From positions 38,363,648 to 38,427,647 of the forward strand of contig CM055103.1 of assembly GCA_029204225.1 (NCBI GenBank): a stretch of DNA of 64,000 nucleotides, written 5' to 3'. The first letter of the stretch is position 1; the number at the start of each line of letters is the position of its first letter. The notes under the pieces were generated by a model. The model was not told the DNA's origin. It searched no databases and saw only the letters and a program-made list of their open reading frames with translations. Shown one piece after another: positions 6,902 to 59,656 of the stretch. The DNA is from Diphasiastrum complanatum. Lineage: Eukaryota > Streptophyta > Lycopodiopsida > Lycopodiales > Lycopodiaceae. Made by a program: the position numbers and the translations under genes.

Positions 6902-7969
6902 TCAATGTGAGAGAGACGATGCATCATACAATGCTGCTTGATGTGGCTTCTCCTTGCCATCTCCCAATAACTCAATTGCCTGCAGGCCCAACATCATCAG
7001 CATCTGTTCTTGTCGTCTTGTCCCAGCCTCCATGCAATTTTGCTCACAAGCAGAGTTAGTGGAAACATCAACAAACAACAGCTCTGGTTCTGATTTTTCA
7101 GCATCACACTCATTTTGATGGCTGGGGTTCAACCATGCTTGCTCCTGCATATTGTCAGGTGCATCATCTCTGGATTCACTTCTGAGAACATCTGGAATAC
7201 AAGTGTAGCTTCCTGATCCTACTAATCCAACTGGGTTCTCGGCATCGATGTAGGAATCTTTGAATGTGTTGCCGGAAGATTGATGATCAGACTCCATTGA
7301 ATCAAATTTTTCAAGTGCCAGTGTTCTGTTTGAAGAAGAGCCTCCTGTCTCACTGACCTTTCCATCTTCTGTGTTTGATTCCCTGAGTACTTCTACAATT
7401 TCAACCTGTGTGTGTCCTAATTCGCCACTGGCCTGCACTGGTACTTGTGTTTCTGCAAGAGCCGATGTGAGGGAGATGACCTGAGGATCTGGAGCGAGGC
7501 TGATTCGGCATATTGGACAAGTTTTATGCGAGAAAAACCACATGTTAATGCAATCGGAGTGAAACCCATGTCGGCACTGGGGCAGAAGACGGACATTTTC
7601 ACCTACCTGGAATTCCGTCAAGCAAACTGAACAGTCCATCGATCGTATCCCTGTCATTTTCCATTTTTCGCTGTCGGAAAATCTCAGCAATGGGAATTGG
7701 TTCACCACTTCCTTCTGCAGCCCAAGAAATGCTCCAACAACCCGATCTGCTGTTCTCTGCTGCTCAAGTCGCCGATTTCTCGTTCTCATCAAAACACATT
7801 GGATCCTTGTGAAAAACCCAAAAACAGTCAGCAGGGCAAACGCTGACAACGCTGCCGCGACAAAGAGAGCAATCTTGAGACTGGAGTGGAAATTCATCTC
7901 ATTGGAGAAAGGTACGCTTCCTGTGGGAGGTGGAGGAAAGCTATTAGGGAAAACATACTGTGATGCCAT
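6902..7969 (-). CDS. ATL-type RING-H2 finger E3 ubiquitin ligase
   Basis: A single-exon gene of 355 codons. Residues about 31-55 form one hydrophobic membrane segment. Residues 83-93 (GLQKEVVNQFP) match the GLD motif that precedes the RING in ATL proteins. The RING-H2 is complete: C113-x2-C116-x15-C132-x-H134-x2-H137-x2-C140-x10-C151-x2-C154, with the conserved Trp144. This family recruits E2 enzymes and ubiquitinates partners at membranes, often in stress or defence responses; the substrate is unknown. The C-terminal ~200 residues are Ser/Glu-rich and look disordered. The ATG at 7969 was chosen because it places the membrane segment near the N-terminus, as usual in ATLs, which are mostly intronless. 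No sign of decay. Confidence 0.93.
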   Translation of the reverse strand: MASQYVFPNSFPPPPTGSVPFSNEMNFHSSLKIALFVAAALSAFALLTVFGFFTRIQCVLMRTRNRRLEQQRTADRVVGAFLGLQKEVVNQFPLLRFSDSEKWKMTGIRSMDCSVCLTEFQVGENVRLLPQCRHGFHSDCINMWFFSHKTCPICRISLAPDPQVISLTSALAETQVPVQASGELGHTQVEIVEVLRESNTEDGKVSETGGSSSNRTLALEKFDSMESDHQSSGNTFKDSYIDAENPVGLVGSGSYTCIPDVLRSESRDDAPDNMQEQAWLNPSHQNECDAEKSEPELLFVDVSTNSACEQNCMEAGTRRQEQMLMMLGLQAIELLGDGKEKPHQAALYDASSLSH

Positions 7970-9224
7970 CGGCCCTCTACCTCTCCATTACAGACTCTGT
8001 AAAGAGAAGGATCTTCATTCTGAAAACTATAGTCTTGCAATCCACCACAATTATGTGATGCTGTTTCACATCAATCTGTCAATAACTAAGCAGAATTTTT
8101 TCAGCAAGGGATCTCTTTCAGATGTGGGCATTCGAGATTGCAGTGTGCAAACCCAATCTTCCCTGAAATTGAAATGCATCACAGAGATGGATGCTGTCAA
8201 TCTGCCCAAAATCAAAAGGAAAGCCCACTTTCACATCAGGCATATTAGCTTGATAGTGGGAACCATGAACTCATCAGCAATCCTCCTGTTTTGTAAATCT
8301 GATGCTGACAACATGATATTTTCTGAGTTGCTATGGGAATCTGCTAATACAGTAAAGCTTGTTTTTTTCTTTTTCCTGTTTTTTATTCCCCTTATATGTG
8401 TTTGATTCTCTTAAAATGAGCCGTCTCAATAGAAAGAGCAAAAAAATTTAGCTGAATCTTCTAATGATGAACACTCCAGATTCACTTATGTGCAAGCAAT
8501 TCATTTTCAAAATTTGCCATGCAGCTAGTGCATGCTTTTACCTACACGCCATGTGAAATATAGAATGGCATACAATCTTTTTCAAGAGTTAATTGACAAA
8601 GTATGTTCGCACTGATCTGTAATTAGACATTTCCACCAATAGAAAAAGCTATCAATGTGATCTACTCAAATAAAAACTCATTTTTTGTGCAATGACCCAT
8701 AGCAATTTGAATCAAGGTTGTTCTTGTGGACCCAAGTTCTAGTCCTTGGATGGTGAATTTGGTGCTTAGATGTCTAGTCTATCTCATCTTGTGCTAGTTG
8801 GTAAGAACTACGAAGACAATTTATTTTTAGAGCTTGTAAGTCGATGTCATCACCTTTTGGGAAAAATATTTCAAGGCTCTAATGACTAAGGGGAAATATG
8901 CAAAACAGGTTGTTACATGGGAGTAAAAGAAGGGCTATTGATGTGCATGTAGGGCTTACAAGAAAAAACCATCCCCATCATTATTCATGACCAGGTAATT
9001 AAGACATTTAACATTTTTATGAGTTACTATCTTGCTTAAGTGAAAGACAATATGAATGTGAAATTTTCTCAAGATGCAAGTAGAATTAATTGTCTATCAT
9101 AATATTAATATGTTTTCTATGACGAGTTGACAACTAATCTATGTTGAGTCCTAACAGACCCAAAAATCACAAGATATATATTATACTTGGAAGCACAACA
9201 CCTAATAGAGTTGCCTATTGAGGA
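7970..9224. other. 5' flank of the RING-H2 gene; no gene recognised
   Basis: The first few hundred bases should hold the promoter and 5' UTR of the minus-strand RING-H2 gene, but I found no convincing TATA box. The plus-strand frame 7809-8405 overlaps the gene's 5' end and is probably fortuitous. The rest, to 9224, is AT-rich and featureless to me. Confidence 0.5.
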
Positions 9225-16339: not shown

Positions 16340-19300
16340 ATGGCAATGGCGATGGCAATCGGAGGAGGAGGCCTTTGTTGCAGTCCCAGTGATCGGTGTT
16401 GTCGTCAATCTCTACCCTGCCTCATCCTCGGAGCCACAGATGAATATGCCCTCTCATTTTCTTCTACTACCCTCACTCGTACTGCTCTTCCTTCGCCTCC
16501 TACTAGCGGTCGTCCTCGGATGGCCATGGAGCGAGGAATTCGGATGACAAGCAGTTTGGAGGAGGAGCGTCGTGAGAGTTTAGGTCTGCTCTGTTTTCCT
16601 TGATGTTGCTACTTCTTCCTCGTCTTCTTGTGAATTTGAGTTTGTAATGTGTGAGATAATTGGGGCTGAATCCGTGGGTGATTGTTTCGATGTGCTGCTG
16701 CTGATGGACTGGCTATTTATGGATGGATTCGCAGGCCAAGAAGCCAGAATAGAACGGCTTTGGAAGCAGTTTTTTCGCGATCCTTCACAGTGGTGGGACA
16801 AAAGGTTTGATAAGGTGAGATACACAAAGTAGACAGATTGAGAACTCTCTACTTTGTGAGATGTTTATGTTTGTGAGATGTTGCTGGACCTTACTGCCGG
16901 GTGGGGGCTTAAGGTAGTTTCGATTGCTTTTTGGTTTCTGGAGGATATGTATACAGGTTGCAATCCTAACATGCACGCTAAATAGAGTGAGGGACATTCA
17001 AGATTCTTCAAATCATAAATCTCATGAGCTTGGTTTGATGCCCGCTCGGGTTTGACAGGGAAGTCCGGAAGCCCCCGATTTCGAGCACAAGACTACCGGG
17101 AAGGCGTTATGGATGAATGATAGGTTTAGGCCCTCTTGGCTGCAAGCAAAGCTTGCTACTCTCGACTCAGAACAATACGCTCTCAACCTTCACACCTGTA
17201 TTACACTCAATTCCCGTTTTTCAATCACTTTGACCGACCTTCTAAACCCTAAACCTAGCCCAACCCAATATATTCGAAGAGTCTGATCTTAATCTTGGTC
17301 TGTCATGCAGGCCAACCACTTTTGAAAAGAACACAACTTTGGGAGGAGTTCTTTTCAGATCCTTCACAGTGGTGGGACATTAGGAGTGATAAGAAGGTGA
17401 AACTGTTGTATCAGTATCCCATGGCATTCGTTCATTCATGTGTCAGTTCATTCAAGCACTCTAGTGGGCTAGTAGTTTGGCTGCTTAGATCTGTGTAATA
17501 GCTCAGTAGCTTCTTGTATTAAAATTAAGTAGGAGTTGGTGATTCAAGGTCTAGCCATGCTTTGATGATTGCAATCTACTCTATTCCGAATTCCAACATC
17601 TGTGATCATTCTAGTACCTTGTCAAGCTTGAGGCCGTCTACTCTATTCCCAGATTTGTGATCATTCAAGTAGGTTTGTTGGAACCTATGGCTCCTGAGGT
17701 TGCGTGCTCAAATCTCTTTTCAGAAAAATCCGAAGTTTCCCGACTTCACACATAAGACCAGAAAGGAGGCATTATGGATTGAAAATCGGTTGAATCCTCC
17801 CTGGGTTCATGCCAAGCTAGCTGCCATAGTACAATGTCAAGAACAGGGGCAATCTGGTTTTTCAACACCTGAAGTCTCCGGTATGTTTCTGTATTTGCCA
17901 TGGTCTCTTTTATTTGCCAGCCTTGGCTGGCTGAGAGGAGAGATGAATTTCCAGAGATGTTGAAGCTACATCTGCATTCCTTATTCATGTTTTGCCAAAG
18001 TTCTGATGCATGGCATGCAGGCAGAGTAGTGAGGATGGAACAGCTCTGGCGGGAATTTTTCTCAGATCCATCGCAGTGGTGGGACAACAGATTTACTAAG
18101 GTGTGGTTAGTAGTTACCCATCTTAAGCCCATTAAATATGACTTGTAAATTCAGGCTGTGAGGATGGGTTTGGACTTATTTCAGGCTTCAGTTGCTTTGG
18201 CTAATCACCTTTGACTGGAAAGTTTTAAATGGTGCTAGGGTTATTTGTATGAGGCTGATCTGTTATGGTAGTCATCTATCTGTGATCTGTGTACTGTTAT
18301 GCAGAAAAGTCCAAAATACCCAGACTTTACACATAAAAGTAAACTTGAGGGCCTATGGGTTGATGGTTGGCTGAACCCCTCCTGGGTTAAAGCAAAGATC
18401 GCCACTATGGCTTTGGATCATATACAATCCAGTGGTGGATTGAGATCACGGTATGGTTTTAATCTGACTGTTGAACGTGGATGTGGAGGCTCAGGTCTGA
18501 GATGGCATGTCTTCTTTGTTATTGGTCATTCAAAATTGACACTTGTTCATATTTCCTTATGATCGTCATATGAATCATGCAGAGTGCCAAACTGCTTTTG
18601 CAATGGTGATAAGGTGAGGAAACTCTGTCAGGAGGGACGATTGAAAGAGGCACTACACATGGTGAAGCTTATGGTCCAGCAAACTATCAAAGCTCCAATC
18701 GGCGTCTACGTTTGCCTTTTGAAGGGGTGTGCCAGAGGGAAAGCTCTGGAGGAGGGCAAGCAAGTGCATGCCCTTATAGTCGACAGTAAACTTGATTCAA
18801 ACATTTTTTTAGCAAACAACCTTGTTGACATGTACTCCAAGTGTGGCAGTCTGTCAGATGCACACAATGTATTCAGCAAAATGTCCCGACGCAATGTGTT
18901 TTCGTGGACTGCCATAATCTCAGCATATGCTGATAGCGGACAAGGTGTGGGGGCTATTAATCTATTTCAGCAAATGCAAGAGACAGGCATAGCACCGGAC
19001 AAGGTTGCATTTGTTGTTGTCCTAAAAGTATGCGCCAGAATTACAGCCCTGGAGCAGGGCAAGCAGCTCCACTCTGACGTCATAAGAAGAGGCTTTGAGT
19101 CGGATTTGATTGTAGCGAACACCCTTGTTGACATGTATGCAAAATGCGGATGCACAGAGGATGCCCGTGAACTGTTCAACAACATGAGCGAACGAGATGT
19201 GGTTTCCTGGAATGTGATGATTGCGGGATATGCACAGAATGGGCTCGTCAAGGAGGCCCTTGCTCTGTATAAGCAAATGAAGCAGGAAGGCGTGCAGCCA

Positions 19301-20335
19301 GACAATGTAACGTTTGTTGTTCTCCTAAAAGCATGTGCCAGCATTGCATCCCTGGAACAGGGCAAGCAGCTCCATTCGAACATCATTACGAGAGGCTTTG
19401 AGTCGGATGTGATTGTAAGAAGCACCCTTATTGATATGTATGCAAAATGCGGGTGCCTCGAGGACGCACGTGGACTGTTCAACAACATGAGCGAACGAAA
19501 TGTGGTTTTGTGGACTGTGATGATTACAGGATATGCACAGAATGGGCTTGGCAAGGAGGCCCTTGCTCTGTATGAGCAAATGCAGCAGGAAGGCGTGCAG
19601 CCAAATAATGTCACGTTTGTTGTTCTCATAAACGCATGTGCAAGCATTGCATCCCTGGAACAGGGCAAGCAACTCCACGCGCACATCATAAAGAGAGGCT
19701 TTGAATCGGATGTGATTGTGCGGAGAACCCTTGTTGACATGTATGCAAAATGTGGATGCACAAACGAAGCCCGTGAATTGTTCAACAACACGAGCGAACG
19801 AGATGTGGTTTCATGGAACATGATGATTGCGGGATATGCACAGAATGGGCTTGGCAAGGAGGCCCTTGCTCTGTATGAGCATATGAAGCAGGAAGGCGTG
19901 AAGCCAAACAATGCCACATATAATTGTCTTCTTTCTGCATGCAGCCATTCTGGCCTAGTAGACGAAGGTCGTCATCTCTTTGATTCCATGTGTAAAAATC
20001 TCGGTGTCACACCAACCTTGGAACACTATTCATGTATGGTAGATCTTTTTGGCCGTGCAGGGTGCCTGGCTGATGCTGAGGACTTCATTATTAAATTGCC
20101 AATTCAGCCTGATACTGTGATTTGGATGACTTTGCTTGGTGCTGCTAGAAATTATGGCCACGTAGAAATAGGAAGACGTGCCTTTGATTGTATCTTGAAG
20201 TTGGAACCAGAAAATGCCTCAGCTTATGTGCTGCTGTCAAAAATCTATGCAACCGCCGGTAGGATGGATGAGGTAGCAAAATTAAGAAAAAAAATGAAGG
20301 CCATAGGTGTGAGTGCCGGAGTGCAGCTGGACTGA
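16340..20335 (+). CDS. PDF-PPR fusion protein, paralog A (eight exons)
   Basis: Exons by splice consensus and conserved phase: 16340-16571, 16735-16814, 17059-17197, 17311-17396, 17724-17880, 18021-18100, 18305-18450, 18583-20335. They join to one frame of 890 residues. Residues 1-78: Ser/Arg-rich, Cys-containing, targeting-like. Three PDF motifs follow at about 85-137, 158-210 and 239-291 (DPSQWWDKRFDK + SPEAPDFEHKTTGKALW; DPSQWWDIRSDKK + NPKFPDFTHK; DPSQWWDNRFTK + SPKYPDFTHK). PDF motifs bind ssDNA in plant organellar OSB proteins; no OB-fold is seen here. From residue 308 runs a PLS-type PPR array (about four P/L/S triplets), which binds RNA, then E motifs. A 5-nt deletion after 20313, compared with paralog C, shifts the frame and ends the protein early. 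Likely organellar; the joint DNA/RNA role is inference. Exon 3's donor (gtatta) is weak but conserved in all copies. Confidence 0.8.
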
Positions 20336-20790
20336 AGTCGATAACCAAGTGCATGCCTGTGTTGTTGGTGATGCAAAAAGCAAGTGAGTTGGGCTGAACT
20401 GGATAGATTGGTGGGTTTGATGAAAGATTCATCTTTCCTGCTCATCTCGATCCTGTTACAATTTGAAATCTGAATGCTCTGAATGAAGCAATCAGGTGGT
20501 TCGTTGTTGCAGGCAGGTGACATTCATTGTCCAAAATGGCCAGGCATTGATGGCAGGTCGACCCGGGGACCAGGTGATATTGATTGTCCAAAATGGAGAT
20601 GGCAGGCCGACCCGGGGACTCGGGGAGGCTGAGGAGCTGCTGGGAAGCTCGATCTGGTGGACGGGATAATAGGATCGCGGGTTCATCTGAAGAAGCATTT
20701 CCTCCCTGCCAGACGTCCAGAACGGGCCGGGATCGCATCATGTGAAGACGCCCTAAGAATGGCGTCTGTTCTTGTGGAGATTATTGGTGA
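20336..20790 (+). pseudogene. Broken E+ and DYW end of paralog A
   Basis: After the frameshift the old frame continues for a while (SW.EVDNQVHA, VVGDA), then is lost. At 20755-20790 the last codons of a DYW domain stand intact: [11 protein letters not shown] followed by TGA. Almost all of the deaminase core between them, including the HxE and CxxC zinc ligands, is missing and replaced by unrelated GC-richer sequence with a small tandem repeat. Paralog A is therefore a former DYW-class PPR gene whose editing domain was deleted. Confidence 0.85.
20525..20625 (+). repeat. Two ~45-bp direct repeats in the lost DYW region
   Basis: The phrases attgtccaaaatgg and atggcaggtcgacccgggga occur at about 20525-20571 and again at about 20581-20625. 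They are more GC-rich than the surrounding DNA and sit where the DYW core is missing. Confidence 0.8.
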
Positions 20791-22613: not shown

Positions 22614-25600
22614 CTAAGGCTCGTCAGAGTCATGGTAGGATAAATCATCCGAATCTGTGGACTGCAGATCCCATGGGTCCGCAGATGAATCGGAACTGGA
22701 GGGAGCCATATGTCGTGGTGTGGCCCTGGCTCTGCTGCGTGCTCTGGATCCCTGCTGTGTGCACTGGCTCTGGACCACCCCCCTCTCCCTGCCTCTACCT
22801 CTGCCTCTGCCTCTGCCTCTGCCTCTCTCCCCTCCTCTGGCCCCCATCTTGCTGCCCCCAAGCCCTGTGTCTACTCCGTCGTGCCTGTGTGTCAGGTGGC
22901 CGTAACCCTACGCCCTGGGATGGCCCTACCCACTGTGATGATGCCTGGCCGACGACTGCCTGTGATGCTCCACTCCTGTCTACAAAAAGAGTACTCAGCC
23001 CCCCCCTCCTAGAACCTCTAGGTCTCCCCCTAGGCCTACGTGCAGGAATGGCTGGCTCCTCCTCTGTCTCTGCATCAGGGTCCACTAGCAGGTCAGCCAG
23101 GTCATCCCCCTGTGCCTCCGCCCACATCTCCTCGTCCTCCTCTGTATCTCCCTCAACCCACTCCTCCTCCTCCACATAGTGTGCCCCGAGCATCTCTCCA
23201 CCCTCCGAGACCTCGTCATCTCCCTCCTCAGCCCTCTCCCTCTGCCTCTCTGTCCTCCTCTGCTGCCGTAAAGCCCGTGCGTCAGCCTGTGCCTGTCTGT
23301 AGAGCTCTCTATGGATCTCATCATCCATCTCCTCCTGTGTGGGTGGTGCTCGAGGAGCAGCAACTATCGAATCCACCAAGCAAGTGTCGGGGTCCACCTG
23401 CAACCAAAAACAATACATTGTTGTTAGGCAGGTATTGTGCAACTCACTGCATATTTTGAAAGCAAATCAATTCACCAAAGCATACCAAGAAAAAAGGGGT
23501 GATGATGTGACTCACCTCGAGCATCTGACCCTCTCCTCGTGTGCGCCTCAGCATACGGCCGTTGGTGTTCACAAACACCAACCGCCTACACTGCTCGATG
23601 GACAACCTGTTCCTCTTCTGCGTGTGATACAAGGCCCAAGTGCTCCAATTCCGCTCACAAGCTCCTGCAGAACAGTCCTGTGCAAGGACTCTCTCAGCCA
23701 ATCGCCTCAGGTCACCTGTGCTGCGCCCGTGGATGCACCACCATGTAACGGGCCTCAGCTGATCCTCCCTCCGCCGACTCTGCTCTCCATCGAATGGAAA
23801 TTGGAAGCGCTCAAATGCGAGCAGCTGGCTTGCAATGTTGGCCAGCATCGGACCTATTGGCAAAAGGAAAAACATGGCACATGTAAGACCCCTCAAATTC
23901 AGACACTACCAATGAGTACAATACTGCAGTAACATTGCTACCAAATGATTTCTCACACGTACCTGGTCCGGGCCATACGCGCTCCGTGTACTCCACCCAT
24001 CCCCGGTGCAGCTCCGGATCGTCTCTCTCTCGTGTAGAGTGCCACAAGGGGTGTAACATGTGGGCTACGGCGTGGATGGGTCGGTGGAAGTAGTCCCATC
24101 TGGCCTCCCAGATGCGTGAGATCTCGCGCCTCCTGCAGCAGACAAATTACAACAATCACTAAGCCATAACATAAAAGAAACGCATCAGACTCGAGTGAGA
24201 AACAACAAACTAGACACTGAAGAGTCATACCTATGCTCGTCCAAGGCTGACAACAGAATCCCCTCGCCGATGCGCTCCATGAACTCGTAAATGAGACCGA
24301 GGGTGCACCCCTCACGGTCTACCAGACGCAGCACTCTGTAAATGGGTAGTAGGATCCCACTAATCTCCTCAGCAGCTCTCCAGAACTCGTCGCCGTACAC
24401 AGTGGACTGGAAAAATGCCGAATGGGGGAGGTCTGTAAAGTCCCGGAAGGCCACGCTGGAAACCATCCTCCGCAATGCATCCTTCACCACCACCAATCGC
24501 TCTAGCACCAAGAAGTAAAACGCAAAGTGTGTGGGTGCGGGCTTCTTCAGGTTTAGGGTGGAGAAGGTGCGGAACAGGGCCAACACACGCCTCTTCCTGG
24601 TGACAAAAGTGACCAGGCGCATGGCCGTAGAAGTGATCTGCAACACAAACACCTAGTAAGAAAGTTTAGACAGTAGTTGAGACGTGGTTAGCAGCATCGA
24701 AGGAAGAAAGCATAGCAAATAGAACAAACTATACCTCTCTGATCCATGGAAGCGCACATAGGTCATGGATGAGCAAGTCTATGCAATGTGCAGCACAGGG
24801 TGTCCACACAATGCTGGGGTGCTCCCTCATCATAATCTCGCCCATCTGCTTGCAGTTCAAGGCGTTGTCGGTGACAACCTGAACCACGTGCTCATCTCCG
24901 ATGTCAGCAATAACATCTCTAATGACCTTCCATATGAAATCGGCTGTGATGGCGTCACCACCTCGAGTGGCATCCACGCCACGTAGGAATACTGTGCCAA
25001 GCGGGCAAGAAACCAAGACATTGATGACGGATCGCCGACGAATGTCGGTCCATCCATCGCTCAGTATCGTGCATCCATACCTGTCACAAAACACCCATTA
25101 GCTACATGCAAAAATTACGGCACCAGTAAATCCTAAACACATGCAAAGAGATTACAAAGACAAATTACTTACTGCTGCCAAGCTGAGCGAATGGAACTCA
25201 ACTCCCGCGTGATGGTCTCCTCCTCCTGACAAAGCAACCTGCCTCGTAGTGCCTCTCGCCTGGGAGGTGTCCATGTAGCATCCACGGCCGCCATCTGTGC
25301 ACAGAACTCCCTGAACACCCAAGGGTCAGCAACAGCAAAGGCAATGCCGCACTCGTAAAAGAACTGGCCACACAGTCGAGTGCAACGGGCCTGCTGCTCT
25401 CTCTGCCAGCCGCATCGATCAAGGGTCTGCTGCTTGGGCCTAACCCCTCTCTGCTGTGTATATGGTGCTCGTGGTCTGGCATGCCCAACGGATGGCTGAT
25501 CTGTGGGTGTGTCACTCTCTCTGGCAACATCTGCCGAAGCATGTGGTGCATCTGCTGCCGAGGAGGAGGGTCGAGAAGCACCCGCTGCTGCTGAACCAAC

Positions 25601-29614: not shown

Positions 29615-29885
29615 TTACCAATAATCTCCACAAAAATAGACACCATCCTTAAAATGGTGGAATCGGTTTGCATCCATCACGCTGATCTCACGCCCCATCG
29701 TTCTGAAATGATCTTTCTGGCATTGTGGTAGTCACAGCACATGCCAAGATTCTTCTTGATGAGGATAGTGTCCCAGGAGGCATGCTGATTAGCCCAAAAG
29801 CAAGGCCAGCTCCTCGCTGTGTTTGCACAAAGCAATCTCCTCTTCATCATCCAGCACAAATCTCAAATCAAGTATACACCCATTA
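29615..29885 (-). pseudogene. DYW-domain fragment, inverted relative to the PPR genes
   Basis: Read on the minus strand from 29885: LRFVLDDEEE, CKHSEELA (the HSE of the deaminase active site), [45 protein letters not shown] and GDYW, followed by TAA at 29617-29615. This is the C-terminal half of a DYW cytidine-deaminase domain. It carries a 1-nt deletion within the normal LAIAFGL segment, and Tyr replaces the second zinc-ligand Cys of CxDCH. No PPR motifs precede it on the same strand. Wording such as ISMPPGT..LIKKN is close to the remnant in paralog C. Confidence 0.88.
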
Positions 29886-30961: not shown

Positions 30962-33900
30962 ATGGCATTAACAACACCAATAGCAATGGCAATCGCAGGA
31001 GGAGGCCTTTGTTGCAGCCCTAATGATCGGTGTTGTCATCATCACGTCTTCTGTTTTGATCATTCTCCTATTCCTTATCAATCTCTAACCCTTTTCTGCC
31101 CCCGTCTCATCCTCGGAGCCTCAAAGGAATACGTGCTCTCATTTTCTTCTACTTCCCTCACTTGTCCTCCTACTAGCGCTCGACCTCGGATGGCCATGGG
31201 GCGAGGAATCCGGATGGCAAGTAGCTTGGAGGAGGACCGTGAGAGTTTGGCTTTGCTTTGTTTTCTTTGATGTTGCTACTTCTCCTTTTTCTTCTTCTTG
31301 TGAATTTAAACTTGTTATCCGTGATAGAATTAGGACTAATTCCCCTGGCTGCGTGTGTTTATGTTACTCTGTTGTTTTGATGTGCCGCTGCTGATGGGTT
31401 GGCTATGTATGGATAGGATCGCAGACCAAGCAGCCAGAATAGAAGGGCTTTGGAAGCAGTTCTTTCGCGATCCTTCGCAGTGGTGGGACAAAAGGTTTGA
31501 TAAGGTAGATTTGCTCTTTTTTGGGTTTTTAAAAGAATTACATTCAGTGAGTGACATTCCGTGTGGCAGGATGCTTTAGATCATGGCTCTCATGAGCTTT
31601 GCTTGATGCCCGCTTGGGTTGCACAGGGAGGTCCGGAAGCCCCCGATTTCGAACACAAAACTACTGGGAAGGCGTTATGGATGAATGATAGGTTTAGGCC
31701 CTCTTGGCTACAAGCAAAGCTTGCTACTCTCTACTCAGCACAATTTGCTTTCAACCTTCACACCTGTATTACACTCAACTCGCGTTTCCCAATCACTTTG
31801 ACCGACCTCTTAAACCCTAAACCCAGGCCAGCCCAACCCATTAAATGACTCTGATCTTCTTAATCTCGCTTTGTCACGCAGGCCAAGCATCTTTGAAAAC
31901 AACGCAACTTTGGGAGGAGTTCTTCTCAGATCCTTCGCAGTGGTGGGACAATAGGAGTGATAAGAAGGTGAAACTGCTGGTATGAGAATCCCATGGAATT
32001 CATACATTCACGTTTCAATTCATTCAAGCGCTATAATGGACTAGTGCTTTGGCTGCTTAGATTTGTGTAATAGGTCTTGCAGTTGGTGGTCCAAGGTCTA
32101 GCCATGCTTTGATGATTGCAAATCTATTCTATTCCAAATTCCAACATCTGTGATCAATTCTAGTACCTTGTCAGAGGCCGTCTACTCTATTCCCAGATTT
32201 GTGATCATTCTAGTAGGTTTGTTGGAACCTATGGCTCCTGAGGTTGCGTGCTCATATCTCTTTTCAGAAAAATCCGAAGTTTCCCGACTTCACACATAAG
32301 ACCAGAAAGGAGGCATTATGGATTGAAAATCGGTTGAATCCTCCCTGGGTTCATGCCAAGCTAGCTGCCATGGTACAATGTCAAGAACAGGGGCAATCTG
32401 GTTTTTCAACACCTGAAGTCTCCGGTATGTTTCTGTATTTGCCATGCTCTCTTTTATTTGCCAGCCTTGGCTGGCTGAGAGGAGAGATGAATTTCCAGAG
32501 ATGTTGAAAGCTACATCTACATTCCTTATTCATGTTTTGCCAAAGTTCCGATGCATGGCATACAGGCAGAGTAGTGAGGATGGAACAGCTCTGGCAGGAA
32601 TTTTTCTCGGATCCATCGCAGTGGTGGGACAACAGATTTACTAAGGTGTGGTTACCCATCTTAAGCCCATTCAATATGACTTGTAAATTCAGGCTGTGAG
32701 TATGGGCTTGGACTTATTCAGATTTAAGTTATTTTGGCTAATCACTTTTGAGTTGAAAAGTTTTAATTGGTGCTAGGGTTATGTGTATGAGGCTGATCTG
32801 TTTTGGTAGTCATCTATCTGTGATCTGTGTACTGTTATGCAGAAAAGTCCAAAATACCCGGACTTTAAACATAAAAGGACACTTGAGGGCCTATGGGTGG
32901 ATGGTTGGCTGAACCCCTCCTGGGTTAAAGCAAAGATCGCCACTATGGCTTTGGATATACAATTTATGGAGGGATTGAGATCACGGTATTTTCTTGATCT
33001 GATTGTGGAATGTGGATCTGGAGGCTATGGTCTGACAATACGTCTTCTTTGTTATCGGTCATTTAAAATCGACACTAGCTCAAATTTCCTATGAATCATA
33101 TGAATCATGCAGGGTCCCCAACTCCTTTTGCAATGGTGATAAGGTGAGCAAACTCTGTCAGGAGGAACGATTAAAAGAGGGACTACATATGTTGAAGCTT
33201 ATGGTCCACCAAACTAATAAAGTTCCAATCAGCATCTATGTTTGCCTTTTGAAGGGGTGTGCCAGAGGGAAAGCCCTGGAGGAGGGCAAAGAAGTGCATG
33301 CCCTTATAGTCCACAGTAAACTTGATTCAAACATTTTCTTAGCAAACAACCTTGTTGACATGTACTCCAAGTGTGGCAGTGTGTCGGATGCACACAAAGT
33401 ATTCAGCACAATGCCCCAACACAACGTGTTTTCATGGACTGCTATCATCTCAGCATATGCTGATAGCGGACAAGGTGTGGAAGCTATCAATATGTTTCAG
33501 GAAATGCAAGAGACAGGCATAGCGCCAGACAAGGTTGCATTTGTTGTTGTCCTAAAAGTGTGCGCCAGAATTACAGCCCTGGAGCAGGGCAAGCAGCTTC
33601 ACTCTGACATCATAAGAAGAGGCTTTGAGTCGGATTTGATTGTAGCGAACACCCTTGTTGACATGTATGCAAAATGCGGATGCACAGAGGACGCCCGTGA
33701 ACTGTTCAACAACATGGGCGAACGAGATGTGGTTTCGTGGAATGTGATGATTGCGGGATATGCACAGAATGGGCTCGGCAAGGAGGCTCTTGCGCTGTAT
33801 GAGCAAATGAAGCAGGAAGGTGTGCATCCAGACAATGTGACGTTTGTTGTGCTCCTAAAAGCATGTGCCAGCATTGCATCCCTGGAACAGGGCAAGCAGC

Positions 33901-34901
33901 TCCACTTGCAAATCATAAAGAGAGGCTTTGAGTCAGATGTGAGTGTACGGAACACCCTTGTTGACATGTATGCAAAATGCGGGTGCCTACAGGATGCACG
34001 TGAACTGTTCAACAATGTGAGCGAACGAAATGTGGTTTTGTGGAATGTGATGATTACAGGATATGCACAGAATGGGCTTGGCAAGGAGGCCCTGGCTATG
34101 TATGAGCAAATGCAGCAGGAAGGAGTTCAGCCAAACAAGGTCACATTTGTTGTTCTCCTAAACTCATGTGCCAGCATTGCAGCCCTGCAACAGGGCAAGC
34201 AGCTCCACTCGCACATTATAAAGAGAGGCTTTGAGTCGGATGTGATTGTACAGAGCACCCTTGTTGACATGTATGCAAAATGCGGATGTACAAAGGACGC
34301 CCGTGAATTGTTCAACAACATGAGCGAACGAGATGTGGTTTCGTGGAACGTGATGATTGCGGGATATGCACAGAATGGGCTTGGCAAGGAGGCCCTTGCT
34401 CTCTATGAACAAATGAAGCAGGAAGGCGTGCAGCCAAACAATGTCACGTGTATTTGTGTTCTTTCTGCATGCAGCCATTCTGGCCTAGTAGATGAAGGTC
34501 GTCAACTCTTTGATTCCATGTGTAAAAATCTTGGTGTTACACCAACCTTGGAACACTATGCATGTATGGTAGATCTTCTAGGCCGTACAGGGTGCCTGGT
34601 TGATGCTGAGGATCTCATTATGAAATTGCCAAATCAGCCTGATAGTTTGGTTTGGAGGACTTTGCTTGGTGCTGCTAGAAATTATGGCCATGTGGAAATA
34701 GGAAGACGTGCCTTTGATTGTGTTGTGAAGTTAGAACCAGAAAATGCCTCAGCTTATGTGCTGCTATCAAACATTTATGCAGCTGCTGGTAGGATGGATG
34801 AGGTAGCAAAGATAAGAAACGAAATGAAGCACATAGGTGTAAAAAAGTGCGGGGGTGCAGCTGGATTGAAGTTGATAACCAAGTGCCTGCCTTTGTCATA
34901 G
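30962..34901 (+). CDS. PDF-PPR fusion protein, paralog B (eight exons)
   Basis: Exons: 30962-31238, 31425-31504, 31627-31765, 31882-31967, 32268-32424, 32566-32645, 32843-32985, 33113-34901; one joined frame of 916 residues. Internal exon lengths (80, 139, 86, 157, 80) equal those of paralog A, and the introns are also similar, so the copies are recent. The N-terminus is longer than in A. The three PDF motifs are complete (DPSQWWDKRFDK; DPSQWWDNRSDKK; DPSQWWDNRFTK, each with its PDF..HK half in the next exon). The PPR part begins at about residue 322 with PLS triplets such as VVSWNVMIAGYAQNG and TLVDMYAKCG, followed by E motifs (HYACMVDLLGR, ASAYVLLSNIY). A 1-nt deletion near 34841-34846 shifts the frame at the E/E+ border, so the last ~20 residues are out of frame. 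Likely organellar; function inferred from families. Confidence 0.8.
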
Positions 34902-34985
34902 GTGATACAAGTCATCTACAAAGCAAGGAGATTTGGGCTGAACTGGATAGATTGGTGGGGTTGTTGAAGTCTTATGACATCAACT
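34850..34985 (+). pseudogene. Out-of-frame E+ remnant of paralog B
   Basis: In the frame one base away, the normal continuation is legible: GCSWIEVDNQVPAF, VIGDTSHLQSKEIW, ELDRLVGLLKS. It stops resembling a PPR protein after about 34970. No DYW residues follow; instead a 33-bp tandem repeat appears. Confidence 0.85.
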
Positions 34986-41787: not shown

Positions 41788-44195
41788 ATGGATTCCCAAG
41801 GGAAAGCCAGTCCTATTATGGACAAGCTTGATAGAGCCAATTACCATCTGTGAAAATTTAAGATGAAAATTGTACTAATGGCTAAAGAATTGTATGACGT
41901 AGTTACAGGTGCAGAAGGAAAACCCGAAGCAGACGACGCAACAATCGCCAGATGGAAGCTAAAGGATGGAAAGGCTTTCGCGTTGATCATCCTCAACATC
42001 ACGGATACCCAGATCGGCCATGTATCCGAGGCTCAGACATCGAAAGAAGTCTGGGACATCTTGAGCACACTATACGAAGTGCGAGATATAGCTTCCAAGC
42101 TACATCTCAGGAAAAAATTCTACTTCCTCAAGATGACAAATGATGATTCTCTACAGAATCACATTAATCAATTCAAGAACCTGCTAAGACAAATGGCCGC
42201 TGTCGGATCCGTCATAGACGATCAAGACGCAGTGATGCAACTGCTTACAAGCTCTTATGACAGCTGGGTGATGATCATCACGACTCATCCAGAATTGACT
42301 CTTTCGAGAGTCATCACTATGTTGTTGCAAGAAGACACGCAGATGAATGAAGCCTCAAGTTTCTCAGCTGCTTCTCATGCCTTGTACACCAACAAGAGCA
42401 TGACAAAGCAGAAGAAGAAGAAAGACCCGAAGGAATCAAAGCTAGTCTAGAAACCAGCTCAGCACAAAGAACAGTTGAATCCGCAGACAAAGAAGAAGCT
42501 GTTTTGCAGATATTACAAGCGAAACAACCACGAAATTCAAGACTGCCGGATACTTCAAGCGAAGAAAAACAGCAAGGGGCAGTCAAATCAAGTGGAAAAT
42601 GCAGCTGCAGAAGCTACACAACCTATTCAAGAAGCGGATCATGATGCCTTCATGACTAGCCATCAAGGAGCAGATCTGGTGACAGTTCTTGGTTCCTGGA
42701 TTCCGGAGCCACTCAACATATGACTAGCCTCATTGGCTGTTTCGAGTCCTATACATACACCTTACAGTACCCAAAATATGTCCACCTTGGTGACAATAGC
42801 ACACAAGCTATTAAAGGTGAAGACACTATAAGATTAAGCTTTGCAAATGATCAGTCTAAGCTACTCTCTAAAGTCATGTATGTACCAAATTTATCTGCGA
42901 ATCTGCTCTCTGTAAGCAAAATCACAGATCTAGGACATAGAGTAGAATTCGAATGTGATTAGTGTAAAGTAGTTGATAGGACAGACAAGATCCTAGCACT
43001 CGGAAAGAGCCATGAATATTTGTATAAATAAAGTCATTGCTTTTCTGCCTCTAGTCAGGCACTCATCAGTACTTCTATTCATGCAAATAAAGGTTTACTT
43101 TGGCATTATAGACTTGGTCATTTAAATCATGCTGCTGTACAACAACTGTCTAGACAATCTATTGTTTTTGATCTCAACTATCCTCGCGAAAAAGTCGAGT
43201 TACATGTCTGTCAAGACTGTCTAGTTGGTAAACAGACTAGGAAACCATTTAAATCAAGCCATCAACATATTGCTAGAGGATTGTTAGATGTTGTACATTC
43301 AGATATTTGTGGCCCGATGAAAATCCTTCGCTGAAGGATGCCAAGTATTTTATAACCTTTATTGATGAATTTTTCAGAAGGACTACGGTGTATTTTATAA
43401 AGAAGAAATCAGAAGTCTTCAACTGCTTCAGAATCTTTAAGGAGCGTGCAGAGAAGAAGACTGGAAGGATGATCAAGGCCCTCATATCAGACAACGGTGG
43501 AGAATATATCTCTATCGAGTTTAAGGAGTATTGCCAGAGCCAAGGCATTGAGTAGCAATTTATCACTCCTTACAGTCCTCAGACGAATGGCTTAGCCGAG
43601 AGGAAGAACCGTACTCTGGTTGAATCTACCAAATGTATGCTATCGCATGCATCGTTGCCCTTGGAGATTCTAGGCTGAAGCTGTCTCCACTGCAGCCTAC
43701 GTCCAGAACAGATGTTTGACCAAGGCTCTCTCAGTGAAGACACCCCACGAGGTGTGGACAGGCTCTAAGCCTTCTTTGAAGAACCTAAGAGTGTTTGGGT
43801 GTATTGTCTACGCGCAGATCCCAAAAGACACGAGGAAGAAATTGGACTTCCAAGGTCTCAAGACTATCCTGATCGGATATACTTCATCTGATAATACCTA
43901 TAAGTTGTATGATCCTGATACCCAGCAAATCTTGTATAGTCGAGATACAGTCTTTATCGAGGATCAGTTCGTCTACTACAAAGGCAAGGATATTGCTCAA
44001 AAAGAACCTTCATCACCTGCCGTTGACACGACAGTCCGAGCTTCTGGCTCAGGCGTGTCTATTGTCGACTCACTTTGAGACAACGAATCAGACGAAGATG
44101 TTGTTGCTACCCAGCAACAATTCCCGAGGTCAATTTGCATCTTTACTAATGAGTCCAAAATGTCCATTAGCATTGTAGAGAGAATGTGGGACTAG
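41788..44195 (+). pseudogene. Copia element Z: gag, protease, integrase; RT lost
   Basis: Gag begins with ATG at 41788 (MDSQGKASPIMDKL). One stop interrupts it at 41851-41853 (tga in place of the Trp of the usual HLWKFKMK). The frame from 41863 is then open for 195 codons and shows the UBN2-type gag fold motifs (SKEVWDILSTLYE). The zinc knuckle is damaged (CRYYKRNNHEIQDC, second Cys lost). Protease keeps DSGATQHM at about 42700. The integrase zinc finger (HYRLGHLN...CQDC) and core (SDICGPM, DNGGEY, SPQTNGLAERKNRT) are legible with stops and shifts. The last part (43716-44078) is the integrase C-terminus and linker (FGCIVYAQIPKDTR). Everything after about 44195, including RT, RNase H and the 3' LTR, is absent. 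Confidence 0.88.
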
Positions 44196-45326: not shown

Positions 45327-48300
45327 ATGGCAACACCACCAACGGCAATGGCAATCGCAGCAGGAGGAGGAGGGCTTTGTTGCAGTCCAAACGATCGGTG
45401 TTGTTGTCATTACGCCTTTCGTTCTGATCATCAATCTCTAACCCATTTGTGCCCCCGCCTCATACTCGGAGCCACAAATGAATTTGCCCTCTCATTTTCT
45501 GCTAATTCCCTCACTTCTACTGCTCTTCCTTCTCCTCCTACTAGTGGTCGTCCTTGGATGGCCATGGTGCCAGGAATTCGGATGACAAGTAGCTTGGAGG
45601 AGGAGCGTGAGTGTTTAGCTCTGTTCTGTTTTCATTGATGTTGCTATTTCTTCCTCTTCTTCTTGTGAATTTGTTTCTGTTATGTGTGATAGAATTAGCA
45701 CTATTTCCGGTGACTGCGTGTGCTTCTGTTACTCTCTTGTTTCGATGTGCTGCTGCTGATGGGTTGGCTATGAGTGGATGGGTTCGCAGGCCAAGCAGCT
45801 AGAATAGGACTTTGGAAGCAGTTTTTTCGCGATCCTTTGCAGTGGTGGGACAAAAGGTTTGACAAGGTGAGATTCAAAGTAGAGACATTAAGGACTCTCT
45901 ACTTTGTGAATGTTTATGTTTGTGAGATGCTGCTGGACCTTACTGCCGGGTGGGTGGGCTAAATTCAGAAAAGGTAGTTTTACTTTCTGTTGGTTTCTGG
46001 AAGAAATACACCAGATTGCAATCCTACGCATACTAAGTAGAGTGAGTGACATTCGGTTTGGAATTGCTCTCTTCAGCTTGGCTTGATACCCGCTTGCGTT
46101 TAACAGGGAAGTCCGGAAGCCCCCGATTTCGAACACAAGACTACCGGGAAGGCGTTATGGATGAATGATAGGTTCAGGCCCTCTTGGCTGGAAGCAGAGC
46201 TTGCTACTCTCAACTCAGAACAATTTGCTCTCAACCTTCACACCTGTATTATACTCAATTCGCGTTTCCCAATCAGTTTGGCCGACCTCCTAAACCCTAT
46301 ACCCAGCTTAAACCTACACAACTTTCTTTTGCAGGCGAAGCATCTTCGAGAACGACACAACTGTGGGAGGAGTTCTTCTCAAATCCTGCACAGTGGTGGG
46401 ACAGCAGGAGTGATAAGAAGGTGAAACTGCTGGTACCAGTATTCACTTCATTCAAGCGCTATTGTGGCCTAGTACTTTGGCTGCTTAGATTGTTGTATTA
46501 GAATTTGTTGCAGTTGGTGGTTCAAGTCTAGCCATGTTTGATGACTACTCTATTCCAAATACTAACAGCTGTGATCATTCTAGTTTCTTGTGAAGCTTGG
46601 AGGCCGTCTACTCTTGATCATTCTAGTAGGTTTTCTTGAAGCATTGGCTCCTGACGTTGCGTGCTCGCATTTCTTTCCAGAGAAATCCGAAATTTCCCGA
46701 CTTCACACATAAGACCAGAAACGAGGCATTATGGATTGAAAATCAATTCAATCCTCCTTGGGTTCATACCAAACTAGCTGCCATGGTACAATGTCAAGAA
46801 CAGGGGCAATCTGGTTTTTCAACACCTGAAGTCTCTGGTATGTTTCAATTTTTGTCATGCTCTTTTTTAATCGCTGGCTGAGGGGAGAGATGAATTTCAG
46901 AAATTTCTAAAGCCACATCTACATTCCTTAATCAAGTTTTGGCAAAGTTCTGATGCATGCTGGTTTAGAGCATGCAGGCAGAGTAGCGAGGATGGAACAG
47001 CTCTGGCAGGAATTTTTCTCAGATCCGTCACAGTGGTGGGACAACAGATTTACTAAGGTGTTGTTCTCCATCTTGAGCCCGTTGAAGATGCCTTGTAAAG
47101 TGAAGCTGTAAGGATGGGTTTGGACTTATTTCGGGCTTCAGTTGCTTTAAGCTAGTTGTCCTCTGTCTGTGATTTGTGTACTGTTATGCAGAAAAATCCA
47201 AAATACCCGGACTTTAGACATAAAAGTACACTTGAGGGCCTGTGGGTTCATGGTTGGCTGAACCCCTCCTGGGTTAAAGCAAAGATGGCCACTATGGCAT
47301 TGGGTCATACACAATCAAGTCCTGGATTGAGATCACGGTATGGATTCAATCTGTGTGGAATGTGGATTTGGAGACTCGGGTCTGAGAGTACATGTCTTCT
47401 TTGTTATTGGTCATTTAAAATTAATAGTTGTTCAAATTTCCTTATGATCATCATATGAATCATGTTGGGTGTCCAGCTCCTTTCACAAGGATGATAAGGT
47501 GAACAAACTCTGTCAGGAGGGACGATTGAAAGAGGCACTACACATGGTGAAGCTTATGCTCCAGCAAACTACCAAAGCTCCATTCGGCGCCTATGTTTGC
47601 CTTTTGAAGGGGTGTGCGAGAGGGAAAGCCCTGGCGGAGGGCAAGCAAGTGCATGCCCTTATAGTCCAAAGTGAACTTGATTCAAACATTTTCTTAGCAA
47701 ACAACCTTGTTGACATGTACTCCAAGTGTGGTAGTCTGTCTGATGCACACAAAGTATTCAGCACAATGCCCCAGCGCAATGTGTTTTCCTGGACTGCTAT
47801 CATCTCAGCATATGCTGATAGCGGACAAGGTGTGGAGGCTATTAATCTATTTCAGCGAATGCAAGTGACAGGCATAGCACCAGACAAGGTTGCATTTGTT
47901 GTTGTCCTAAAAGTCTGTGCCGGAATTAAAGCCCTGGAGCAGGGCAAGCGGCTCCACTCTGACATCATAAAAAGAGGCTTTGAGGGCGATGTTGTTATAG
48001 GGAGCACCCTTGTTGACATGTATGCAAAATGCGGGTGTCTAGAGGACGCACGTGAATTGTTCAACAGCATGAGCGAACGAAATGTGATTTCGTGGAATGT
48101 GATGATTACAGGATATGCACAGAATGGGTTTTGCAAGGAGGCCCTTGCTCTGTATGAGCAAATGCAACAGGAAGGCGTGCAGCCAGAAAATGTCACGTTC
48201 GTTGTTCTCCTAAAAGCATGTGCTGGTATTGCAGCCCTGGAACAAGGCAAGCAGCTCCACTCCCACATCATAAAGAGAGGCTGTGAGTCGGACGTGATTG

Positions 48301-49292
48301 TACAGAGTACCCTTGTTGACATGTATGCAAAATGCGGGTGCTTAGAGGACGCTCGTGAATTGTTCAACAACATGACCGAACGAGATGTGGTTTCATGGAA
48401 CGTGATGATTGCGGGATATGCACAGAATGGGCTTGGCAAGGAGGCCCTTGCTATGTATGAGCAAATGCAGCAGGAAGGCGTTCAACCAAACAAGGTCACG
48501 TTTGTTTTTCTCCTAAAAGCATGTGCCAGCATTGCAGCCCTGGAACAGGGCAAGCAGCTCCACTCGCACATCATAAAGAGAGGCTTTGAGTCGGATGTGA
48601 TTGTACAGAGCACCCTTGTTGACATGTATGCAAAATGCGGATGCACCAAGGACGCCCGTGAATTGTTCAACAACATGACCGAACGAGATGTGGTTTCGTG
48701 GAATGTAATGATTGCGGGATATGCACAGAATGGGCTTGTCAAGGAGGCCCTTACTCTGTATGAGCAAATGCAACAGGAAGGCGTGCAGCCAGACAGTGTC
48801 ACGTATATTTGTGTTCTTTCTGCATGCAGCCATTCTGGCCTAGTAGACGAAGGTCGTCATCTCTTTGATTCCATGTGTAAAATTCACGCTGTCACACCAA
48901 CCATGGAACACTGTGCATGCATAGTAGATCTTTTATGCCGTGCAGGGCGCCTGGCTGATGCTGAGGACTTCATCAACGAATTGCCATTTCAGCCTGATAG
49001 TGTGGTTTGGAGGACTTTGCTTGGCGCTGCTAAAAATTATGGCAATGTGGAAGTTGGAAGACGTGCCTTTGACTGTGTCGTGAAGTTGGAACCAGAAAGT
49101 GCCTCAGCTTATGTGCTGCTATCGAACATTTATGCAGCTGCCGGCAGGATGGATGAGGTAGCAAAGATAAGAAAAGATATGGAGGACATAGGTGTGAGAA
49201 AAGTGCCGGGGTGTAGCTGGATTGAATTTGATAACCCAGTGCATGCCTTTGTTGTAGGTGATGCCAGTCATCCAGAAAGCAAGGAGATTTGA
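45327..49292 (+). CDS. PDF-PPR fusion protein, paralog C (eight exons)
   Basis: Exons: 45327-45606, 45790-45866, 46107-46245, 46335-46420, 46681-46837, 46978-47057, 47192-47337, 47477-49292; one joined frame of 926 residues. N-terminus: Ala/Ser/Arg-rich, targeting-like (about 93 residues). PDF motif one lacks one residue before LWKQFF; motif two reads NPAQWWDSRSDKK; motif three is as in A and B. The acceptor used in A and B (catgcag) has become catgttg here; the next AG, at 47475-47476, keeps the frame. The PPR array holds about four PLS triplets (LVDMYAKCGCLEDAREL, VISWNVMITGYAQNG), then E1/E2 (CACIVDLLCRAGRLADAEDF, ASAYVLLSNIYAAAGR) and an E+ start (VPGCSWIEFDN, VVGDASHPESKEI). A TGA replaces the Trp that follows KEI. 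This copy keeps most of E+ in frame. Organellar location and DNA/RNA roles are inferred. Confidence 0.82.
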
Positions 49293-49318: not shown

Positions 49319-49492
49319 AAGCTGGCCATTGCTTTTGGGTTCATCAGCATGCCTCCCGGGACATCTCTTCTCATCAAGAAGAATTTTCGCATTTGTTTTG
49401 ATTGCCACAATGCCATAAAGATGATTTCAGAAGAAATGATGGGGTTTCACCATTTTAAGGATGGCGTCTGTTCTTGTGGAGATTATTGCTGA
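49319..49492 (+). pseudogene. DYW-domain remnant behind paralog C
   Basis: An open 57-codon stretch in another frame: [55 protein letters not shown], then TGA at 49490-49492. It keeps the CxDCH zinc ligands but lacks the segment before KLAIAF (with the HSE active-site residues) and about 12 residues before FHHF. The final Trp of DYW is changed to Cys (TGG to TGC). It lies 27 bp after the stop of paralog C, so the gene once ended in a full DYW domain. Confidence 0.92.
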
Positions 49493-57474: not shown

Positions 57475-58680
57475 CTCCCCCTTAAGCTAACTGCTGCGAG
57501 TCTGAACTACAATTGAGATTTATCATATCTACTAGGGTAGAATGTTTATCTCTAACAATGGCTTTGTCAAAATATCAGCCAACATACTGTTTGTGTGACA
57601 ATAACTTAGTACAACATCTTGGTTTTGAACTTTCTCTCTAAGAAAATGGAACCGAACTTCTATGTGTTTAGTTCTAGCATGAGTACGTGGGCTCAGAGAT
57701 AGAGCTATGCAGCTCTGATTGTCGCACTGGAGTATTGTTGGACCGATCTGTGGGAATTGCAGATCCTGCAGCAGCCTTCTCAGCCAAATGATCTCCTTCA
57801 CTGCCGATGTAGTTGCAACATATTTGGATTCTGTAGAGGACAACGAAATGTATTTCTGCTTTCTGCTGTTCCATGAAATGGGTCCTCTTGCAAGGAAACA
57901 AATATAATCTGATGTGGATTTTCTAGTATCTACGTCTCCTGCCCAATCGAAATCTGAATAAGTAGTCAGTGTGAGTGCAACTTTTGTGTTGCCGTTGTAA
58001 CTCAAGGCATAGTGCTTTGAGGCTTGAATGTACTTCAAAACTTTTCAGTGTTGTAGGCTTGGATTGGACATGAATTGCGACAGTGTGCTCACAGCATATG
58101 CAAGATCAAGTCATGTGTAGATCATAGAGTACGTGATAGATTCTATTACTGATTGATAGAGGTACTTGCACATTTCTTGCTGATCTGCCTTCGTTCTGGG
58201 GCACATATCTTTGGATAGCTTGCATCTTGGATCTATAGGAGTATCTATGGGTTTGCAATCCTCCATGCCATATCTGCGAAGTACATTGATTAGGTAAGAT
58301 TGTTGGCTTATGGTGATCCTTCTGCTCACACGATCTCTGCTGATCTCCATACCGAGAAGGTAATGGACTAGGCCTAAATCGGTCGAACTCTGATGAGAGC
58401 CAAGATTTGGTTTCTAGTAGTAACTAATTTGAATTGCTGATGATTACAGAATCATCAACGTATAGTGCTATTATGACGTAGCTTTGCCCTTTTCGTTTTA
58501 GATACACATTCGAATATGCGGAATAGGAGGTAAAGTCGTGCTGCAACAAGAAACGATTTGATCTATCGTACCGGGCCCTCTGAGCTTGCTTCAGATCGTA
58601 TAATGTCTTATGCAATTTACATATTAGATGCTCCTTGCCTTGAAGGACATAACCTTCTGGTTGATAGATGAACATATCTT
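57475..58680 (-). pseudogene. Copia element Y: reverse transcriptase and RNase H
   Basis: On the minus strand: QPEGYVLQGKEHLICKLHK and LYVDDSVI (the catalytic YVDD is intact) at 58675-58424; GMEDCKPIDTPIDP at 58350-58111; then a 168-codon RNase H frame (58038-57532) with DWAGDVDTRKSTS, SSTESKYVATT, CDNQSCIAL and LADILTKPL. Stops separate the pieces. This is the 3' end of an element whose protease and integrase appear to lie at 62.1-63.6 kb; the parts are separated by another copia element. Confidence 0.9.
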
Positions 58681-58959
58681 CTTGTATATATCCATGTAGG
58701 AATGTCGTCTAGATGTCCATCTGGTAAATGTTCAGATCTTCTGCAGCAGCTATAGCCAATAAGGTGTAAACAATTTCAGATCCTTAAGATCCAATCCACT
58801 TAAATGATCTTTGGTTAGAAAGAGAAATACATTACCAATATCACCAATGTAGAAAAAATCAGCATCTACACACAAATTGAGATACAAACACTAATAGAAC
58901 TTGATCAAACTTGAATGAAATGATAAAATATTGTTGCTGTCCGTACAAAACTAGCAAGC

Positions 58960-59376
58960 TATTGTATTTCACACATGTGGATCCGAAAATAACAATAAAT
59001 GATCATTCTATACATAGAATTGCAAGCAATCACCAAGATAGTGCACCAATAGATAGTAGAACCCAAGAGAACTATGTATAAGCATGAAATAATCCGTTTA
59101 TAACAGGTCCAAATCCTATTTGGCCACTTGGCTTTCCCACCAAAATGCTAATCCTACTATTTTTGGGTCTAGATTCAATGTACCCAACTATTCAAATTTG
59201 AATCTACTCAAACTTGCATTCTAACTTTCCCACACTTTCAAAAAGTGTTTATTCAAATGACATTTAGACTAATGAACTTTGAAAAGTCAATCTCTAAGTC
59301 TAAAACAAGTTTCGGCCTCAATATGCCAAATATGGAAATATAGCAAAATATGATGAAACTAGTTGAATCGTTCACA
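58960..59376 (-). repeat. 3' LTR of copia element X (minus strand)
   Basis: On the minus strand, gaagagggag (polypurine tract) is followed by TGTGAACGAT at 59376. The other end probably lies near 58960, where cacatgtgtgaaatacaata resembles the end of the LTR at 55378-55810. The left border is approximate. Confidence 0.6.
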
Positions 59377-59377
59377 C

Positions 59378-59656
59378 TCCCTCTTCAACTAGTTTTAGCA
59401 TAGACTTTGATAGCACTCCAAGTGAAGTCTTATGATTCATGAACAAGTCCTTTCCCAATGCTTTGGTGAAGATACCAGCTACACATTCCCTTGAAGACAC
59501 ATGTTGAAGCTCCATCTCCTTTGCAATGACTTGCTCCCTCACAAAGTGATATTGTATCTCAATATGCTTGCTCCTAGCATAGTTTTTGACAATAGAACTT
59601 TGATCCATCATAAGAATGATCTTCTTTCTAAGAATAGACCTCCTTTCAATAATCAT
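59378..59656 (-). pseudogene. Copia element X: end of RNase H
   Basis: Minus-strand frame with KNYARSKHIEIQYHFVREQV, HVSSRECVAGIFTKALGKD and LKLVEEGV before the stop: the last ~60 residues of copia pol. The CDNQS region upstream is damaged (MMDQSSI). Confidence 0.85.

Follow-up and report, generated by a model that had tools for sequence, protein, structure and literature searches.

The window, the 64,000-nucleotide stretch of Diphasiastrum complanatum DNA analysed here, carries on its plus strand three tandem paralogs of one gene (16340-20335, 30962-34901 and 45327-49292). Each joins three PDF motifs of the OSB type to a PLS-class PPR array with an E motif, and judged by its sequence this PDF-PPR architecture is real. 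The best reading of the three copies is that they are deaminase-less members of a PDF-PPR-E-DYW family in which remnants of the DYW domain persist. The genome probably holds a large family of such factors, predicted to be C-to-U editors. We give a probability of roughly 0.5 to the reading that the family consists of organellar PPR editors with a built-in PDF clamp, of which the window copies are deaminase-less. The PDF-PPR combination is likely new; a full-text search of one open-access library returned no description of it. The PDF-PPR-DYW proteins are apparently a large, undescribed kind of organelle RNA-editing factor.

Gene models and constraint of the three window copies

In each copy a leader exon, conserved in all three, is followed by six short exons that make up three PDF motifs of two halves each, and then by one long, intronless exon encoding the PLS-class PPR array and the E motif. 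The PDF consensus reads LWxxFFxDPxQWWDxRxxK, then KxPKxPDFxHKxxxEALWxxxxxxPxWV. The joined proteins of copies 1, 2 and 3 have 890, 916 and 926 residues. The features are as follows.

16340..16571, plus strand: copy 1 exon 1, leader, a putative organelle transit peptide, ending at the common GTGAG donor
16735..16814, plus strand: copy 1 exon 2, first half of PDF motif 1
17059..17197, plus strand: copy 1 exon 3, second half of PDF motif 1
17311..17396, plus strand: copy 1 exon 4, first half of PDF motif 2
17724..17880, plus strand: copy 1 exon 5, second half of PDF motif 2
18021..18100, plus strand: copy 1 exon 6, first half of PDF motif 3
18305..18450, plus strand: copy 1 exon 7, second half of PDF motif 3
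18583..20335, plus strand: copy 1 exon 8, PLS-class PPR array and E motif
30962..31238, plus strand: copy 2 exon 1, leader
31425..32985, plus strand: copy 2 exons 2-7, three PDF motifs (31425-31504, 31627-31765, 31882-31967, 32268-32424, 32566-32645, 32843-32985)
33113..34901, plus strand: copy 2 exon 8, PPR array and E motif
45327..45606, plus strand: copy 3 exon 1, leader
45790..47337, plus strand: copy 3 exons 2-7, three PDF motifs (45790-45866, 46107-46245, 46335-46420, 46681-46837, 46978-47057, 47192-47337)
47477..49292, plus strand: copy 3 exon 8, with shifted acceptor; PPR array and E motif, ending at SKEI

The initial annotation had assembled copy 1 from eight exons, and these do form a single open frame with GT/AG borders throughout. 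Its end of exon 1 at 16583 gives way to 16571, which is more likely because the GTGAG donor there is common to the three copies. It had also claimed the same frame for all three paralogs. That claim stands through the PDF exons, and the intron phases are identical across the copies (1, 0, 1, 0, 1, 0, 2), but it fails at the last acceptor of copy 3, which reads CATGTTG where copies 1 and 2 read CATGCAG. With this usual acceptor gone, the nearest in-frame AG lies 9 nt downstream. The 18 PDF exons, and the PPR arrays as far as the E motif, contain no stop or frameshift, and in all three copies the PDF motifs stand in frame before the PLS-class PPR array and E motif, as had been described.

The Pfam search of the joined copy 1 protein bears out the PPR assignment (PPR_2, 2.2e-91) and returns the E motif PF20431 at 60.1 bits against a cut-off of 27.3 (2.5e-16). 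Alternating P (35), L (35) and S (31) units, the PLS class, can be parsed in all three copies. No Pfam family was returned for the PDF part of copy 1, and the Pfam SSB domain is absent from its protein. Profile search recovers both halves of the PDF motifs in 9 of 9 cases, which is a consistency check and no independent test, the profiles having been built from those very motifs. The proposed similarity to OSB motifs is upheld by the PDF halves of two OSB-like loci: with the window profile they reach 57.5 and 38.5 bits, compared with 14.5 bits for the best of 20,000 shuffles. The PDF profile has no match in the viral contigs searched, and of seven pattern matches in the prokaryote genomes searched none was confirmed. 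A PDB search with the PDF block gave as its best match an ion channel (E 0.005), which was judged to be chance.

Between copies, Ka/Ks is 0.35, 0.37 and 0.29 for the PDF exons and 0.29, 0.42 and 0.35 for the PPR exon. Intron divergence between copies is 0.13-0.20, about that of synonymous sites. The synonymous excess in the PDF exons gives one-sided Fisher p values of 0.005, 0.0008 and 0.00001 for the three pairs, which are mutually non-independent. The PDF exons of the window copies thus look constrained. Across all loci collected, no stop occurs in the 56 distinct PDF-B halves, whose pooled dN/dS is 0.26; of the 49 distinct PDF-A halves one has a stop, and their dN/dS is 0.21. Two of these halves come from OSB-like loci. 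Halves were chosen with the profile and with string searches for P[DEN]F and WWD. That P, F and WWD never vary in the conservation counts is thus built into the selection.

The joining of the PDF exons to the PPR exon was followed by script at 27 distinct last junctions, among them those of the three window copies; another 11 rows were dropped because no donor or acceptor was matched by the regular expressions. GT-AG stands at the expected sites in 25. Splicing leaves an open frame in every one of these 25, each time in phase 2, while only 14 of the 27 are open with the intron retained. The two junctions outside the 25 are L018, which is window copy 3 and lacks an AG at the old site, and L035, which is mis-assigned and was scored as not open. 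PPR genes are often intronless, and the PDF exons and the PPR exon might for that reason belong to separate transcripts that are never joined. Such a separation is most improbable, given the reading frames just described, last-intron lengths that take every residue modulo 3 (0, 1 and 2 in 20, 4 and 3 cases), and a relative, L064, that has a PDF half and PPR-DYW within one exon. In many single-PDF genes (L039-L054 and similar) the last intron contains no stop and has a length divisible by three, so that its retention would also give an open protein.

A feature beyond the initial annotation is the presence of DYW-region remnants 3' of all three copies, broken in three different ways.

20322..20437, plus strand: copy 1 remnant, E2/E+ region preceding DYW, in other frames (tblastn with the L040 C-terminus)
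34853..34969, plus strand: copy 2 remnant, region preceding DYW, in another frame
49319..49486, plus strand: copy 3 remnant, second half of DYW, in another frame, 57% identical to the L040 DYW

In copies 1 and 2 the frame changes ahead of the CSW(T/I)E signature. Copy 3 has a stop at SKEI, and its DYW second half starts past the site of HSE, the catalytic signature of DYW. A complete C-terminal DYW deaminase is absent from the window copies, which hold the remnants only, and it is present in the relatives L064 and L040. Between copies 1 and 2 the minus strand carries what is left of a further DYW domain (29618-29869), with 47% identity to the L040 DYW.

Other frames surround the three genes. 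Broken frames at 41854-44178 (plus) and 57532-62662 (minus) look like pieces of Copia-type retrotransposons, and frames at 24185-25097 (minus) like a hAT-type transposase. A 361-residue frame at 6902-7987 (minus) resembles an ATL-type RING-H2 ubiquitin ligase. A weak PPR-like match (35% identity, E 4e-9) lies at 61794-61979 (plus), where retroelement frames are plentiful.

PDF-PPR-DYW loci across the genome

The 1.74 Gb genome was searched for the DYW-deaminase family (472 candidates, 150 scored), for PDF (930 first-look candidates, 150 scored) and with an OSB-like probe (501 candidates, 150 scored). At least 83 of the 150 scored DYW matches have a PDF match within 8 kb upstream on the same strand, where chance would give about 0.08 of 150; among the matches listed, none of the 150 has a PDF downstream. 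With fewer PDF lists the count is at least 58 of 150, and a PDF lies nearby on the other strand in 1 of 150, again among the matches listed. These matched places are not equal to genes, many occurring in pairs that are maybe segmental duplicates or alternative haplotypes. The remaining 67 DYW matches, with no PDF among the matches listed, may reflect true absence. The architecture is not limited to a singular protein: many loci of the same genome carry PDF, then PPR, then an intact DYW deaminase.

The PDF half and DYW share open frames of equal length at 20 of the 150 DYW matches, of which only L064 was read to its end. There the acceptor, PDF half, PPR array, E, E+ and complete DYW lie in one frame of 867 residues, the first of which precede the acceptor. 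In L065-L067, the other single-exon regions fetched, the PDF half runs straight into PPR. Among 20 regions fetched, most of them picked for long open frames, 17 have the PDF half and PPR in one stop-free frame, which passes through a last intron that happens to be open, and 12 reach a terminal DYW. PPR-like strings occur within 1.5 kb downstream on the same strand in 28 of 30 PDF-B loci (L009-L038, with several near-identical pairs), and none was found within that distance at L026 and L030. The DNA pattern CARTGGTGGGAYAA matches 352 times and its reversed form 11 times. The 352 is not taken as a count of PDF motifs, because the profile finds PDF in only four of the eight loci cut out (L002, L005, L006 and L008, of which L005 and L006 overlap).

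The nearest longer relative seen, L057, is on the same contig as the window (C12:180-188 kb). Its three PDF-B halves correspond position by position to the first, second and third of the window at 0.78-0.92 identity; thus the three-PDF block is probably, on this likeness, older than the tandem array. L016 is a slightly closer match than L057 to the third PDF motif of copy 3. A DYW match lies in an 822-residue frame just past the fetched L057 stretch. Outside the window, a fourth PDF copy is located about 30 kb past copy 3 (G000:C12:38440388). Three PDF matches with scores identical to those of the window copies lie about 155 kb downstream (G000:C12:38537624-38567298), and are either a recent segmental duplication or an assembly duplicate.

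Residues at position 5 and the last position, which belong to the PPR code, were compared in 81 distinct P-L-S units, the window included. They are almost only T/N and D/N in P motifs and almost only S/N and D/N in S motifs. In variability the two positions rank 3rd and 6th of 31 in S motifs, and only 14th and 8th of 35 in P motifs. These code-residue columns argue that the arrays are predicted to read different RNAs.

Probable shared descent of the PPR-linked and OSB motifs

OSBs are plant-specific organelle DNA-binding proteins. Five places in the genome have the OSB-like OB-fold exon. Four of them are on large contigs, the fifth is on a small one, and none is inside the window; PF00436 likewise gives 13 matches, none in the window. 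The OB-fold exon on C4, the one read, narrowly passes the Pfam cut-off for SSB (27.3 vs 26 bits). PDF halves L062 and L063 lie downstream of an OB-fold on the same strand, about 12 kb away on C4 and about 33 kb away on C13. These are the halves that score 38.5 bits (C4) and 57.5 bits (C13), and they are ascribed to OSB genes by order, strand and similarity. No PDF lies in the 4 kb following each of three OB-fold exons (L059-L061), and the two OB-fold places on C12 have none among the matches listed.

The PDF motif is split by an intron at the same site in the OSB-like and the PPR-linked copies. All 58 distinct PDF-B halves, the two OSB-like ones among them, have an AG exactly 15 nt ahead of the PDF proline codon. 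A phase-0 GT donor is present in each of 52 distinct PDF-A halves, and in 47 it lies at exactly the same codon. The shared intron position argues for common descent of the PPR-linked and OSB motifs, and for copying as genomic DNA. The PPR-linked motif also keeps the residues of the OSB motif. Since PDF motifs are joined to PPR-DYW, PDF alone is unfit for counting OSB genes. The loss of OSB that a review of organelle enzymes reports for Pteridophyta (PMC4166229) would not fit the OSB-like loci of this lycophyte genome.

Function, alternatives and comparison with known systems

In plant organelles, PPR-DYW proteins supply both the target specificity and the enzyme of RNA editing. The presence of DYW in the relatives makes C-to-U editing the natural reading. 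The initial annotation had suggested the tethering of a transcript to single-stranded organellar DNA, for example at replication forks; the many loci with PDF, PPR and intact DYW make RNA editing a better first guess. The full form of the family, presumably transcribed and targeted to organelles, would comprise a leader, one to three OSB-derived PDF motifs, a PLS-class PPR array, E/E+ and a DYW deaminase. The array would read a short organellar RNA sequence, and in full-length relatives DYW would deaminate a C just 3' of it. The PDF block may act as a built-in single-strand nucleic-acid clamp, slightly more likely on RNA, at the 5' side of the PPR footprint, than on DNA. In doing so it would perform in cis something like the job of separate cofactors in flowering plants. 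The window copies, having lost the deaminase, could at most bind RNA and recruit DYW in trans, or may decay. The N-terminus of a PPR array faces the 5' side of the RNA. This N-terminal place of the PDF block, and a MORF domain absent over cut-off from the genome, lean us towards the RNA clamp.

Several observations count against a working editor in the window, namely the DYW region broken in 3 of 3 copies in three different ways and the loss of the canonical acceptor in copy 3. With other, longer relatives in the genome, the three copies could be decaying pseudogenes of the family that give no working protein. That would leave unexplained 18 PDF exons and PPR arrays open as far as the E motif, and Ka/Ks values well below 1, though part of this constraint may predate the loss of DYW; we regard decay as a tentative but serious possibility, short of even odds. 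It is very unlikely that the PDF block is a mere passenger, an OSB-derived leader captured for organelle targeting that has no role of its own. The N-terminal position of PDF, adjoining the leader exon, would suit such a capture, but the dN/dS of 0.26 and 0.21 in the PDF-B and PDF-A halves, with a single stop among all of them, speaks against it.

By analogy with the OSBs, the PDF block might instead hold PPR or PPR-DYW proteins on single-stranded DNA at nucleoids or transcription bubbles, with editing or masking being co-transcriptional. One review states that the PDF of AtOSB1 is enough to bind ssDNA (PMC6963530), and the PPR-linked motif retains the OSB-motif residues. According to another review, AtOSB1 and AtOSB2 bind ssDNA in preference to dsDNA or RNA (PMC4166229), which by analogy favours the tether over the RNA clamp and is why the tether is kept in consideration. 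The partner downstream is nevertheless an RNA-reading array, with an RNA deaminase added in the relatives, and we hold the tether to be somewhat unlikely. A broader form of the idea, which we consider doubtful, is that an OSB ssDNA module, built by a plant lineage into a large share of its DYW editors, allows nucleoid-bound, co-transcriptional editing without MORF-type cofactors, the window copies being tethered PPR proteins that would mask or stabilise nascent transcripts. The PDF-PPR family makes a physical coupling of editing to organelle DNA or transcription testable, and it may bear on how editing proceeds without MORF cofactors outside flowering plants.

MORF/RIP proteins are cofactors of flowering-plant editing, to which the PDF block may be analogous as a possible aid to PPR editing factors; they differ in being separate proteins. 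No MORF domain exceeds the cut-off of 27 in the genome, where the best match reaches 19.8 bits, though an intron-split MORF could escape this search. That sole match (E 0.89) lies inside an 830-residue open frame (G000:C3:45657784-45658017). The editing factors of bryophytes, lycophytes and ferns are discussed as MORF-independent in one paper (PMC8110955).

Comparison with OSBs shows both kinship and departure. OSBs have one to three PDF motifs and the window copies three each, and the window genes and the two OSB-like loci of this genome share the codon boundary at which an intron splits the motif. OSBs carry an SSB-like OB-fold, which the window genes do not, and the window genes carry a PPR array, which OSBs do not. 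E-class PPR editing factors without a deaminase of their own exist, and the window copies resemble them in ending at or near the E motif. They differ from these in their PDF motifs, and recruitment of a partner deaminase is conjectural for them. With PPR-DYW editing factors the window copies share P-L-S repeats with code residues and the E motif, and the relatives in this genome add E+ and a complete DYW. The difference lies in the N-terminal PDF motifs and, for the window copies, in a DYW reduced to remnants. The extra domains named in a review of moss PPR proteins are RRM, LAGLIDADG, SMR, NYN, CBS and SAP, a set that does not include PDF (PMC9459714).
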